Assembly: GCA_026929865.2 (NCBI GenBank)
Contig: CM049408.1
Location: 25,995,001 to 26,059,000, forward strand
Direction of reading: 5' to 3'
DNA from: Hyperoplus lanceolatus
Lineage: Eukaryota > Chordata > Actinopteri > Uranoscopiformes > Ammodytidae
DNA length: 64,000 nucleotides
In this document: positions 61,140 to 64,000 of the stretch, piece after piece
How positions within the stretch are numbered: position 1 is the first letter of the stretch
Layout of the letters: each line of letters starts with the position of its first letter
Made by a program: the position numbers and the translations under genes
The notes under the pieces: generated by a model
The model's input: only the letters and a program-made list of their open reading frames with translations
Databases searched by the model: none
What the model was told of the DNA's origin: nothing

Positions 61140-64000
61140 ATGTCTCTACTGCAAAGAAGACAGAGAATGATGAACCCTAACATGATTAGGACGCCTACAC
61201 TCACGACAGAGGTACAGTGTAAATTAATCTATCAACTAACTACATGTACTTTTACATGGGAAAAGTGCTGTATTTGAGTAAAATGTTAGACTTTTTAGGG
61301 TTTTTTTTGTGTTTTTACCATTTCAGACTACTAATTTTTTTCAATTTTTTGAGTGTTTTCTAAGTATTTTTCCCATTTTAGATGATGAGACTACTTTAAA
61401 CTCCTACTGAACTAAGTATAAAGGGGGAATATAATAGTTTTGATTAAGTTTAATTGATTTTAGAGCTATAGTTATTAGTTATTGCTTAGAAATTGAGTTT
61501 ACATACAAAAACAAATGACCAGTTTTTACAGTTTTTCTCAGTTGCTTTGGCGCTTTTCTCAGATCAGAATGAAAATTCTCATAACTATTAGTTCAACCTC
61601 CGCAACATTTAGTCATTTGAGCACATCATAGTAGCAATTTCTCCTTCCTCTGAACAAATTGCAAATGCGTTTGGACATGTTTCAGTTGCTTTCAAACAAT
61701 TCTCTGCTGTTTTATAACATTGTCATTTGCTTATGTCATGTCAGTCAAAAGGAACTATACTTATGGATGCTGAATAGTCGTTCCCAATAAAACTAATAGT
61801 CTTCATTTCATTGCTTGAGTCATTACATACAAAATTGTTGAACTAGTTATCAATTTCTGTCGGCAAATTTTATACCTTTTCTTTATTATAGATACTTTCC
61901 TCGCTGCATTGCAAGGGATAATATCCGTTGTGATGTAGATGAAAATATGTGGCCAGACAGACAGGAATGTCTGGATGTGCCAGAATGATGTGCCAAATGC
62001 GTTTGGACATGTTTCAGTTGCTTTCATACAATTCTCTGCTGTTTTATAACATTGTAATTTGCTTATGTCATGTCAGTCAAAAGGAACTATACTTATGGAT
62101 GCTGAATAGTCGTTCCCAATAAAACTAATAGTCTTCATTTCATTGCTTGAGTCATTACATACAAAATTGTTGAACTAGTTATCAATTTCTGTCGGCAAAT
62201 TTTATACCTTTTCTTTATTATAGATACTTTCCTCGCTGCATTGCAAGGGATAATATCCGTTGTGATGTAGATGAAAATATGTGGCCAGACAGACAGGAAT
62301 GTCTGGATGTGCCAGAATGATTTACCTATATATATTCAGTTACATATGTCCTGTTATATTGTTCACATTTGTGCACAGCTCTACCAAAAGGGTGTTTTTT
62401 TTTATGTTTGTTCTAAATAAGTGACTGAAGTGTAATTTTCTTTTGCACAATGCTGTAGAATTGCAAAGAGCATATACAGTAAAAATGTGAAACATACGTA
62501 TTCAGTGTCTTGTACTCACTTACTCCCCTTACTACAGCAATGTGTAACTTTACTGTAGTTTTCAAATGGCTGTACAAGTAGTGTATAGTGCTGTCTTGAG
62601 CATTTTCAGATAGTGTCACCGAGTTCTGACCTTTTTTTTGCATTGGAGAACACTGAGAGAATAAACTGTCATAATGAAAGCATGACAAAGCCATTTGACT
62701 ATCTTGTTCATAAACGATGGTGTCAAGACTTCTCATTTTGATGACACTGGCAGTTTCATTGACATGAATACTTGCTTTTGAGGAATATACTATCCATTTT
62801 GAGCAAGTGACGTACTTTTGCAGGTTATCCACTAGGTTTTGCAGTTTGCACTAATTGTTTTGAGAAATGCACTAATTGCTGTGCAAATGTTAATAGTGAT
62901 GTGAGAAAAGCACCAAAGCGACTGAGAAAAACTGTAAATCCAATGCACTGTTTGTAAGATTTATTTTAGCCTTATAGTCAAAATTAATGTTTGTTCGATC
63001 ATATCAAGTTTGTAAAGTACATCTTACGGTTTTCAATTGTTATTCCAGCAGCCTCCCAGTCCCAGTCTCACTCTGCCTCATATAAACCCATCGAGATTGG
63101 TAAATGACGCCGAAAAAATGAGACGAATATTTACTCAGGTCAAGACATCTAAGAAGAAAGAACTGGAGATGTCTGAACTGATAGAGGTACAGTATTAATC
63201 TACTAACTAGATAGATAGATAGATAGATAGATAGATAGATAGATAGATAGATAGATAGATAGATAGATAGATAGATAGATAGATAGATAGATAGATAGAT
63301 AGATAGATAGATAGTGGGATGATGAGTAGATAGAGTAGATAGATAGATAGATAGATAGATAGATAGATAGATAGATAGATAGATAGATAGATAGATAGAT
63401 AGATAGATAGATAGATCATATCATATCATATCATATCATATCAAGTGTGGAAAGTATATAGGGTTTTACTTTTTCCCAACAGAATCACAGACTCTCTCTG
63501 CCTGAATTGAAAAATGAGGCTAAAATATTGACAGTGACTTCAAGGAAGACAACATTAAAGATGTCTGAACTCACAGAGGTACAGTATTTATCAACTAAAT
63601 AACTAAATACAGTAGACAGACAGACAGACAGACAGACAGACAGACAGACAGACAGACAGACAGACAGACAGAACGACAGACAGATAGATAGATCATATCA
63701 AGTGAAAACTACATCTTACAGTGTTCAATTTCTTTCCCCGCAGAATCACAGACTCTCTCTGCCTCCGATACATCCGGTGCAGACGCCTCAACTGACAGAG
63801 GTACAGTAATACTCAGCTAGACAGACGGACGGACGGACGGACGGACAGACAGACAGACAGACAGACAGACAGACAGACAGACAGATAACCATATCAAGTG
63901 TGATAACTACTTCTTACAATTTTCAACCTTTTCCCCAAACAGAAACCCAGACTCGTTCTTCCTCCAATATTTCCCACTAAAGTGGAAATGGAGTCAGAAG
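61140..64000 (+). CDS. Unrecognised gene with tandemly duplicated in-phase exons (partial)
   Basis: I do not recognise this protein. Modelled exons: 61140-61211, 63049-63186, 63483-63578, 63744-63800, 63943 to the window end. All have AG/GT borders, all are multiples of three where complete, and all are open in the joined frame. Donors are near-identical: GAG|GTACAGT. Exon ends read LTTE, MSELIE, MSELTE and PQLTE. Exon starts read [21 protein letters not shown] and [11 protein letters not shown]. The intron ends preceding exons 3-5 share 'ATATCAAGTG', so whole exon-intron units were copied. Introns 2-4 are mostly GATA, GACA or GACG repeats. The visible peptide is basic, with Lys-rich [13 protein letters not shown]; no signal peptide or known domain. 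It lies antisense to cpxm1, either inside its large intron or upstream of it. Alternative: a decayed repeat array that keeps open frames by chance. Confidence 0.5.
61527..62936. mobile_element. DNA transposon remnant with long terminal inverted repeats
   Basis: The left end TACAGTTTTTCTCAGTTGCT is mirrored by the right end (GCGACTGAGAAAAACTGTA), with about 38 nt of near-identity per arm. It fills most of intron 1 of the tandem-exon gene. The superfamily is uncertain, possibly IS3EU-like from memory of the end sequence. A 139-codon minus-strand ORF inside (62832-62413) matches nothing I know. Confidence 0.7.
61662..62321 (+). repeat. 332-bp direct tandem duplication inside the transposon
   Basis: 'CAAATGCGTTTGGACATG' starts copies at 61662 and 61994. 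The two copies run to 61989 and 62321 and appear nearly identical by eye, so the duplication looks recent. Confidence 0.85.
63207..63442 (+). repeat. (GATA)n plus (ATATC)n microsatellite, intron 2 of the tandem-exon gene
   Basis: A GATA run to 63314, an interruption (GTGGGATGATGAG), a second GATA run to about 63415, then five ATATC units. Nearly the whole intron is simple repeat. Confidence 0.95.
63614..63690 (+). repeat. (GACA)n microsatellite, intron 3 of the tandem-exon gene
   Basis: A GACA run with a GAACGACA interruption near 63671 and a short GATA end. It occupies the same position in its intron as the GATA run in the previous one. Confidence 0.93.
63820..63886 (+). repeat. (GACG)n/(GACA)n microsatellite, intron 4 of the tandem-exon gene
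   Basis: Begins TAGACAGACGGACGG, turns into GACA units and ends GATAACC. A third variant of the tetranucleotide at the equivalent intron position. Confidence 0.93.

Follow-up and report, generated by a model that had tools for sequence, protein, structure and literature searches.

First exons of one copy of an apparently protein-coding, multicopy fish gene family with in-frame cassette exons and microsatellite-bearing introns in Hyperoplus lanceolatus

The 3' end of the window, by which we mean the whole 64,000-nucleotide stretch of Hyperoplus lanceolatus DNA that was analysed, carries on its forward strand exons 1 to 5 of an unnamed fish gene that appears to code for a protein. Considering the findings as a whole, the explanation that we favour and hold to be probable is that these exons are the 5' start of one member of a protein-coding fish gene family, present in many intron-rich copies and without Pfam match, in which cassettes would change in number in frame through the action of intronic arrays, would be spliced by means of bulged-U1 pairing and would encode a disordered docking product. 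All paralogue counts and comparisons were made in the window's own genome, and copies are referred to by labels such as C24.

Exons, splice sites and surroundings of the window copy

Exon 1 (61140..61211; 72 nt, 24 aa) ends at a GAG/GTACAGT donor and is followed by intron 1 (61212..63048), which is without microsatellite and has an acceptor tail homologous to the tails of the other cassettes. Then come cassette exon 2 (63049..63186; 138 nt), intron 2 (63187..63482) with a GATA array at 63208-63416, cassette exon 3 (63483..63578; 96 nt), intron 3 (63579..63743) with a GACA array at 63614-63692, cassette exon 4 (63744..63800; 57 nt, 19 aa), intron 4 (63801..63942) with a GACA/GACG array at 63819-63885, and the first 58 nt of exon 5 (63943..64000), all on the forward strand. 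Re-measurement confirmed what the initial annotation had reported, namely that the five exons lie in one open frame with the complete ones in phase 0, that the GAG/GTACAGT donors and repeated peptides at the exon ends are present, and that the start spacings are 434, 261 and 199. Each of the four complete exons (1-4) is 0 mod 3 in length; both other frames are closed in exons 1-3, and exon 4 is open in one other frame too. That the frame is kept is unlikely by chance, as had been proposed, with P = 1.7e-4 for chance openness of all five window exons (local Markov sequence, fixed frames), a figure that makes the case look stronger than it is because exons 2-5 are related to each other.

Past position 64000, the window copy stays open, with phase 0 kept, as far as exon 10, where reading ended, and the frame-breaking copies that might have lain just beyond the window were not encountered. 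Further units had been anticipated there; when the sequence was extended, exon 5, which ends at window-equivalent 64056, turned out to be the last of its kind, with the donor changing to GTAATT. Exons 6-10 lie outside the window, and exons 8-10 constitute a second tandem exon class further downstream. Chance pseudo-exons were ruled out by the frame, the donors and the homologous intron ends, and then by the complete frames and the constraint described below.

On the forward strand of the 64 kb, the sequence GAGGTACAGT occurs four times, always at the donor of a window exon; the reverse strand has none. A shared intron-end sequence had also been described, and the ends are indeed alignable in all four window introns, but the exact ATATCAAGTG is found in introns 2-4 only, intron 1 having ATATCAAGTT. 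Splice-site profiles built from these same window sites recovered them, as expected, at E values of 7e-24 to 3e-19 (acceptor) and 6e-14 to 4e-11 (donor), and detected nothing further in the window, where the next best values were 0.14 (acceptor) and 1.6 (donor). Across the copies, GTACAGT accounts for 35 of 46 donors. The predicted duplex between donor and U1 is best with the C at +4 bulged (-8.5 to -8.8 kcal/mol), energies that about 1% of the 7,630 GT sites in the window attain, and this predicted pairing suggests that splicing may proceed via U1 with a bulged C at donor +4. An alternative donor five bases further 3' in each exon was rejected owing to the frame shift it would cause in the sequence.

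Upstream region and 5' UTR (60830..61139, forward strand), which contain TGATGTCA, are common to most paralogues in an alignment of 11 copies, in which C7 aligns partly and C2 only near the ATG. A 40-nt tandem repeat lies at 60892-60997, with extra repeat copies in the window copy, and the region may function as a promoter. Within intron 1, an insertion (61527..62936, forward strand) makes up 1,410 of the 1,837 nt; it has 15-nt terminal inverted repeats (TACAGTTTTTCTCAG / CTGAGAAAAACTGTA) and includes a 332-nt tandem duplication. The empty site is present in four paralogues (C24, C1, C8 and C9b), and the corresponding search string was not found in C9a.

On the reverse strand, a Peptidase_M14 (carboxypeptidase) exon was identified in the open stretch 58830..59129 (Pfam E 7.5e-23). 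Likely further carboxypeptidase exons on this strand are 55286-55675 (Pfam E 1.6e-4, below the cut-off) and 58309-58731, which in paralogues again lies next to the peptidase exon and had no Pfam match in the part tested; we take 56767-57135 on the same strand to be another. From the sequence, the window copy appears to be nested antisense in an intron of this gene, and in the carboxypeptidase paralogue on C8 the intron there is only about 1.4 kb long.

A dispersed family and its coding constraint

Relatives of the window copy were matched at 25 places on 16 contigs. The idea of an undescribed single gene stood as regards the gene, which is supported by three copies with complete frames, but not as regards its being single, which we rejected in favour of a dispersed family of whole-gene copies. 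Interspersed copies elsewhere had been named as grounds for seeing only a repeat family; such copies exist, but since they comprise the whole gene and three have complete frames, the gene reading is not refuted by them. Of the 16 modelled copies, three have a frame that is open all the way from ATG to stop and at least six contain a stop or frameshift (frameshifts in C24x; exon 2 stops in C8 and C22; exon 7 shifted in C7; exon 11 shifted in C1 and C1b). Exon 1 is present in 13 copies of the codon alignment, all 13 beginning with ATG, and the C-terminus FGRK(N) is conserved among copies.

The C24 copy has a complete reading frame of 799 codons in 12 exons, with all modelled introns in phase 0, and on its 5' side short cassette exons follow one another, most of them with a variant of LxLPPIxP and a SELTE-like end. 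A Pfam scan of the 799-aa product detected no family at the cut-off (two matches only, E 0.15 and 0.87), and a PDB search with the full product gave no match at E up to 1. The peptide search suggested at the outset was run with the window peptide and returned no Pfam family and two PDB matches (E 0.58 and 2), while three longer pieces yielded a single Pfam match below the cut-off (E 0.39). Scanning IMG/VR with C24 exon 11, a single-protein query that reaches close relatives only, produced five pattern matches and no relatives. No hydrophobic run was seen by eye in C24 exons 1 and 2. The product would be a mostly disordered protein, and we conjecture that its repeated LPPI-type motifs could act as docking sites, in which case cassette number would set valency.

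Six between-clade pairs had dN/dS values of 0.52-0.55 as compared to 0.80-0.86 under neutrality, and neutral simulations reached values that low in 0, 0, 3, 0, 0 and 0 of 300 runs. When codons touching CpG were dropped, C24-C15, C21-C15 and C21-C24 stayed low (0, 4 and 4 of 300), whereas the three between-clade pairs with the window copy were neutral-like (64, 83 and 27 of 300). At the sequence level, coding constraint on the family between clades is supported, and for the window copy the signal is gone without CpG codons. Between clades, where exon divergence is 16-22% in one measurement and 17-25% in another, exons were more similar than intron bodies in the five measurable pairs (0.826 versus 0.684, 0.799 versus 0.640, 0.751 versus 0.736, 0.794 versus 0.725 and 0.758 versus 0.658). 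Exons were no more similar than the adjoining conserved intron ends (for example, 0.844 versus 0.857). Four within-clade pairs were neutral-like (148, 41, 116 and 80 of 300), exons there being not more alike than introns, and very close pairs with dN/dS above 1 were C9a-C9b (2.40, 9 differences) and C24-C24y (1.46, 6 differences). For cassette exons alone, 26, 33, 9, 6 and 0 of 300 neutral simulations were as low in five pairs. Indels that are not multiples of three made up, for instance, 4 of 20 in exons versus 11 of 12 in intron ends for C14-C24, and the picture was less clean for exon gaps in C24-C15 (16 of 39) and C21-C24 (15 of 36).

A dispersed repeat or pseudogene family whose exons have lost translation or never had it, or a family in which few members are still alive and the window copy is not one of them, would fit the scatter over the genome, the broken copies and the fact that constraint is undetected within clades or, once CpG codons are dropped, for the window copy. 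We nevertheless regard this as distinctly unlikely, given that three frames are complete and splice sites are conserved despite the divergence of exons between clades, that dN/dS in C24, C15 and C21 is low even without CpG codons, that exons resemble each other more closely than intron bodies do when clades are compared, and that the C-terminus is conserved. Possible, if doubtful, is that the gene travels as cargo of a mobile element or is itself a selfish gene, a reading that would be compatible with the favoured explanation and would account for single copies on many chromosomes and for one being nested antisense in an intron. Besides the dispersal and an apparent host intron that is so much shorter in the C8 paralogue, this is suggested by the C17 copy, which shares 94.7% identity with C24 across 4,323 aligned bases, and by four of eight alignments to C24 starting at 2001-2003. 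However, the protein is without transposase, integrase or other Pfam domain, three copies form a tandem array on C24, the other four alignments start at 1720, 2029, 2219 and 2270, and the upstream shared sequence reaches further in several copies than in C24; with starts so scattered and upstream sharing longer, no fixed element end is established.

The architecture also recalls zebrafish NLR-B30.2 genes, fish-specific and multicopy, in which short N-terminal peptide repeats are each encoded on a single exon and, in some groups, have multiplied extensively (Howe et al. 2016, PMC4852459, in excerpt), as in this large family a short N-terminal peptide is repeated once per exon in window exons 2-5. 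The likeness is one of architecture only: NACHT, FISNA, LRR and B30.2 are absent by Pfam from the complete C24 model, the peptide is a different one, and microsatellites in cassette introns, a feature here, do not appear in the excerpted account of PMC4852459. We rejected a teleost NLR gene, the probability of which we consider negligible.

Cassettes, arrays and in-frame change

Cassette introns consist of a conserved donor flank, then usually a GATA/GACA-type array, and then a conserved acceptor tail, and 29 of 31 measure 94-523 nt. Tetranucleotide arrays are present in 28 of 31 cassette introns as opposed to none of the 47 introns of exons 5 to 11 (nine copies), and in none of 13 exon 1-2 introns. 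These counts support the earlier proposal that an exon-intron unit was duplicated with its tetranucleotide array, and the proposed gain and loss of repeats in multiples of three agrees with the number of cassette-type exons, which is 5, 4 or 3 per copy (exons 1 and 5 counted) with phase 0 kept. As cassettes are whole codons with splice ends that match those of their neighbours, their gain or loss leaves the frame intact. As in tandem-exon genes, neighbouring exons and intron ends are homologous and copy number varies in frame.

The chromosome-9 copies C9a and C9b are without exon 3 and have, where the cassette is deleted, an apparent hybrid of introns 2 and 3: the donor flank is nearest the exon-2 type (0.92), the tail is nearest the exon-4 type (0.96 and 0.94, a modest margin over 0.90 for the next type), and an array lies between. 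Of the exon-1 intron of C18, just the tail enters the comparison of introns. In one copy pair, the cassette join falls inside the microsatellite. Intron 2 is 161 nt long in C24, 164 nt in C24x, 129 nt in C24y and 193 nt in C17, where exons 1-5 are 99-100% alike. Comparison of the copies supports in-frame gain and loss of the unit, and the arrays may be the substrate for the recombination (or slippage) that changes cassette number. Quite doubtful, and offered as speculation, is a ratchet in which intronic microsatellites would shift the number of cassettes and LPPI motifs at microsatellite speed, between individuals or even cells, via same-phase cassettes that share a bulged-U1 donor; intact exons would then be the unit, comparable to minisatellites for coding repeats.

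Known systems and significance

In titin PEVK and collagen, symmetrical exons have been multiplied tandemly and in frame within a gene; the family is set beside them by architecture alone, and unlike them it has arrays in its introns and, between paralogues, what looks like a hybrid intron. SCPP genes have all introns in phase 0 and a signal peptide near the N-terminus; the C24 model matches the former, and in its exons 1-2 no signal-peptide-like run was seen by eye. Schistosoma micro-exon genes, according to the excerpted descriptions, have exons of 3-81 bp, introns of up to 5 kb and proteins described as secreted (PMC10526429, PMC10399815), three isoforms being called disordered (PMC10399815). 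Compared by these descriptions, both are multicopy with many short symmetrical exons (here exons 2-4, 57-138 nt, 0 mod 3), whereas here nearly all cassette introns are far below 5 kb and inspection by eye showed no hydrophobic leader in exon 1. Pairing of U1 at 5' splice sites can gain if one intron base is bulged (Roca et al. 2012, as cited in an excerpt of PMC9311317). What differs from such known donors is that here one putative bulged donor is repeated from one cassette exon to the next. Among the open-licence papers covered by the search, none dealt with this gene or with microsatellite-linked cassette exons.

Exon-repeat genes usually reveal just the end result of old duplications. With copies in one genome that differ in cassette number, and with what looks like a hybrid intron among them, the role of intronic microsatellites in the in-frame gain and loss of exons becomes directly testable. 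The repeated putative bulged 5' splice sites offer material for splicing work, and the family adds a protein of nearly 800 residues without Pfam model, which annotation could easily miscall as repeats or pseudogenes.

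A tandem array of phase-0 exons and its splice sites

Re-reading of 60-64 kb of the window confirmed exon 1 (61140-61211, 72 nt), exon 2 (63049-63186, 138 nt), exon 3 (63483-63578, 96 nt) and exon 4 (63744-63800, 57 nt) on the + strand, all open in one frame with exon 5, which starts at 63943 and runs to the window end; the other two frames are both closed in exons 1-3, and one of them is open in exon 4. In the window copy, exons 2-5 encode variants of LxLPPIx (shortened; 17 letters not shown), including RLSLPPIHP and RLVLPPIFP. As the initial annotation had stated, a common donor, GAGGTACAGT, occurs at all four donors; it is absent elsewhere on both strands of the window. 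Donor flanks and intron ends align as homologues, intron 1 included, and profile searches detected no additional copy of these splice-site elements within 64 kb. As to whether such a frame could arise by chance, local Markov sequence would be open over all five exons in fixed frames with P = 1.7e-4, a figure that treats the exons as more independent than they are, exons 2-5 being related. The expectation of more units past the window was not borne out, since in the extended sequence exon 5 ends at window-equivalent position 64056, where the donor is GTAATT, and exons 6-10 come next, each open and of a length divisible by three. Five exons of this kind are therefore the full count in this copy, called C14 after its contig (the window being C14:25995001-26059000 in a genome of 806.7 Mb and 527 contigs).

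Bulging of the +4 C lets GTACAGT pair with the 5' end of U1 at -8.8 kcal/mol (-8.5 at exon 4), an energy matched by about 1% of 7,630 GT sites. Among 15 copies of the gene, 35 of the 46 donors of exons 1-4 keep GTACAGT; GTAAAGT, GTGCAGT and GTAATGT also allow pairing with a one-base bulge, and five donors carry the weaker GTACTGT, GTAATAC or GTACATT. Introns 1, 3 and 4 each have a branch-point-like CTTAC whose first base is 26-30 nt ahead of the acceptor. Bulged U1 registers are known and are tied to alternative donor use (PMC9311317). The register with the bulged +4 C is presumably the one used at the donors described here. The short exons 2-4 are called cassettes below.

Exons 8-10 form a second tandem class, with the shared pattern (E/G)IxGxxE..SGWDSDS and mostly GTGAGTAT donors; there are two such exons in C1, C21, C22 and C15 and three in complete copies of groups A and B (see below). 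In the window copy they lie at 4805-5962 of L009, a stretch of the same genome outside the window, and the SGWDSDS-like motif is acidic. No tetranucleotide array was found in the introns of exons 8-10, and arrays are therefore not required for every exon duplication in the gene.

Genomic setting of the window copy

Carboxypeptidase exons were found on the - strand at 55-59 kb of the window (including 58830-59129), and past the unit the same strand carries discoidin exons and, after them, a likely first exon (stretch L010); thus the window copy is probably nested antisense inside a carboxypeptidase gene, which we take to be CPXM/AEBP1. The discoidin matches are weak singly (Pfam E 0.013; PDB 0.016 and 0.042), but the last of these exons aligns at E 2e-15 with its counterpart in the paralogue of the carboxypeptidase gene on C8. 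Two linking exons, seen in or expected from that paralogue, were not found in readable sequence. The matching intron measures about 1.4 kb in the C8 paralogue versus at least about 8 kb around the window copy. Apparently in the same carboxypeptidase intron, outside the unit, lies a pure TCTA array of 36 copies (59249-59392).

Intron 1 holds a 1,410-nt insertion (61527-62936) bounded by terminal inverted repeats of 15 nt; within it lies a 332-nt tandem duplication whose copies are 99% identical. The insertion is younger than the family, because C1, C8, C9b and C24 show an empty site. Upstream of exon 1, a tail at about 60720-60810, resembling a LINE 3' end, is common to C14, C9a, C9b, C1, C8 and partly the C24 group, and is therefore older than those duplications. 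The segment at 60130-60310, in which ARAGORN detected no tRNA, resembles a tRNA-derived SINE, and open stretches on both strands at 47600-48750 resemble Tc1-type transposase remnants.

A gene family with probable modest coding constraint

Grouped matches of two queries, the peptide spliced from the window exons (22 rows) and exon 11 of C24, a long exon taken with some flanking intron (32 rows), placed relatives at no fewer than 25 distinct places on 16 contigs of the same genome, both counts being lower bounds. For the C24 product, no Pfam family above cut-off and no PDB relative was found. Interspersed copies had been named as a sign of a mere repeat family; copies are indeed interspersed, but homology between them spans exons, introns and, in most, the upstream region, so that they arose at the DNA level, and three of the 16 modelled places (of 25) hold complete ATG-to-stop frames: C24 (799 codons), C21 (776) and C9a (785). 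Open as far as modelled are C14 and C24y (exons 1-10), C9b (exons 1, 2 and 4-10) and C17 (exons 1-8). The partial exon 11 of C24y and C17 has no stop in the searched match, and that of C9b has one TAA in a matched stretch that takes in intron sequence. All exons found in C15 are open except exon 6, whose model crosses five stops; in C15, C7 and C2 (stretches L036, L023 and L031) the exon 6 model crosses stops from a matching place, a pattern suggestive of intron gain or of a split exon. In C18, exon 2 and the beginning of exon 1 are missing; C24x, C7, C8, C22, C1 and C1b are broken, C1b also lacking exons 1-6, and C2 is incomplete. Three copies stand in tandem about 12.7 kb apart at C24:14770001-14802500 (parts L028, L029 and L030), two with exons 1-10 open and C24x with frameshifts; a fourth close relative is on C17.

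An unrooted tree of concatenated exons from 15 copies gave four groups with supports of 1.000: B (C24, C24x, C24y, C17), C (C15 and C7, joined by C2 on sequence), D (C1, C8, C21, C22) and the remainder, A (C14, C9a, C9b, C1b, C18). Between groups, dN/dS was 0.52-0.55 in all six pairs tested; neutral simulations (observed transition share, no stops, 300 runs per pair) had medians of 0.80-0.86, and 0, 0, 3, 0, 0 and 0 of 300 runs were as low as observed. With codons touching CpG in either copy removed, C24-C15 (0.63), C21-C15 (0.63) and C21-C24 (0.64) were still low (0, 4 and 4 of 300), and C14-C24 (0.70), C14-C15 (0.76) and C14-C21 (0.62) were not (64, 83 and 27 of 300); this control weakens the between-group evidence. 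Four within-group pairs, two including the window copy, did not differ from neutral (148, 41, 116 and 80 of 300), and C9a-C9b and C24-C24y, with few differences, gave 2.40 and 1.46. For cassette exons alone, 26, 33, 9, 6 and 0 of 300 neutral runs were as low in five pairs.

In the five measurable between-group pairs, similarity was higher in exons than in intron bodies (0.826 vs 0.684, 0.799 vs 0.640, 0.751 vs 0.736, 0.794 vs 0.725 and 0.758 vs 0.658), with no such excess within groups (0.933 vs 0.921, 0.918 vs 0.941, 0.940 vs 0.936 and 0.937 vs 0.942). Set against the conserved intron ends, exons showed no clear excess of similarity. Gaps that are not multiples of three made up 4/20 in exons versus 11/12 in intron ends, 4/35 versus 7/10, 4/19 versus 15/16, 16/39 versus 11/16, 15/36 versus 5/8, 9/30 versus 6/7, 7/23 versus 7/8, 0/3 versus 2/3, 1/8 versus 6/8 and 0/4 versus 3/3 in ten pairs. 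We read the family as probably protein-coding, held by a modest constraint over the long term while its recent copies are apparently free to drift. The many charged, serine/threonine and proline residues suggest that the product may be disordered. PPIY in exon 4, present in nine of ten aligned copies (PPIH in the window copy), fits the PPxY motif, and our best guess at a function is that the repeated motifs would provide docking valency.

Cassette number and tetranucleotide arrays

The proposal that an exon was duplicated together with a tetranucleotide-bearing intron, allowing in-frame gain and loss, is supported by cassette counts, by array distribution and by one probable deletion junction. 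With exons 1 and 5 included, C14, C24, C24x, C24y, C17 and C15 have five exons of this kind, C9a, C9b and C18 have four, and C1, C8 and C21 have three; C7 has exons 1, 2, 4 and 5 with a decayed exon 3, C22 has exons 2 and 5, C2 has exons 1-3 together with a part of exon 5, and none was found in C1b. Tetranucleotide arrays occur in 28 of the 31 introns after exons 2-4 in 15 copies, which are not independent cases as some copies are nearly identical; the other three are intron 4 of C24 and C17, with dinucleotide arrays, and a rearranged intron of C22. Such arrays were absent from 13 introns between exons 1 and 2 and from 47 introns lying between exons 5 and 11 in nine copies.

In C9a and C9b, the intron between exons 2 and 4 has a donor flank of exon-2 type (0.92 vs 0.83 for the next type) and a tail of exon-4 type (0.96 and 0.94 vs 0.90), with a tetranucleotide array between them. 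Since C14 and C18, of the same group, keep exon 3, the likeliest event in C9a and C9b is a deletion whose ends met within the arrays. In C18, which is without exon 2, the tail before exon 3 is of exon-3 type (0.94) and lies behind a TAGA array; to the left the sequence looks like intron 1, and an array therefore marks just the right-hand end of this deletion. The group D tail is nearest the exon-5 type (0.87-0.90 in C1, C8 and C21) and its donor flank is ambiguous, so that cassette loss and an older state are indistinguishable there. Tandem-exon genes are a known kind, of which this cassette family is a variant; as far as Pfam and literature searches show, the family is new. Our verdict is that the copies appear to constitute a gene family in which cassettes follow an orderly design and their loss has left traces of a link to microsatellites.
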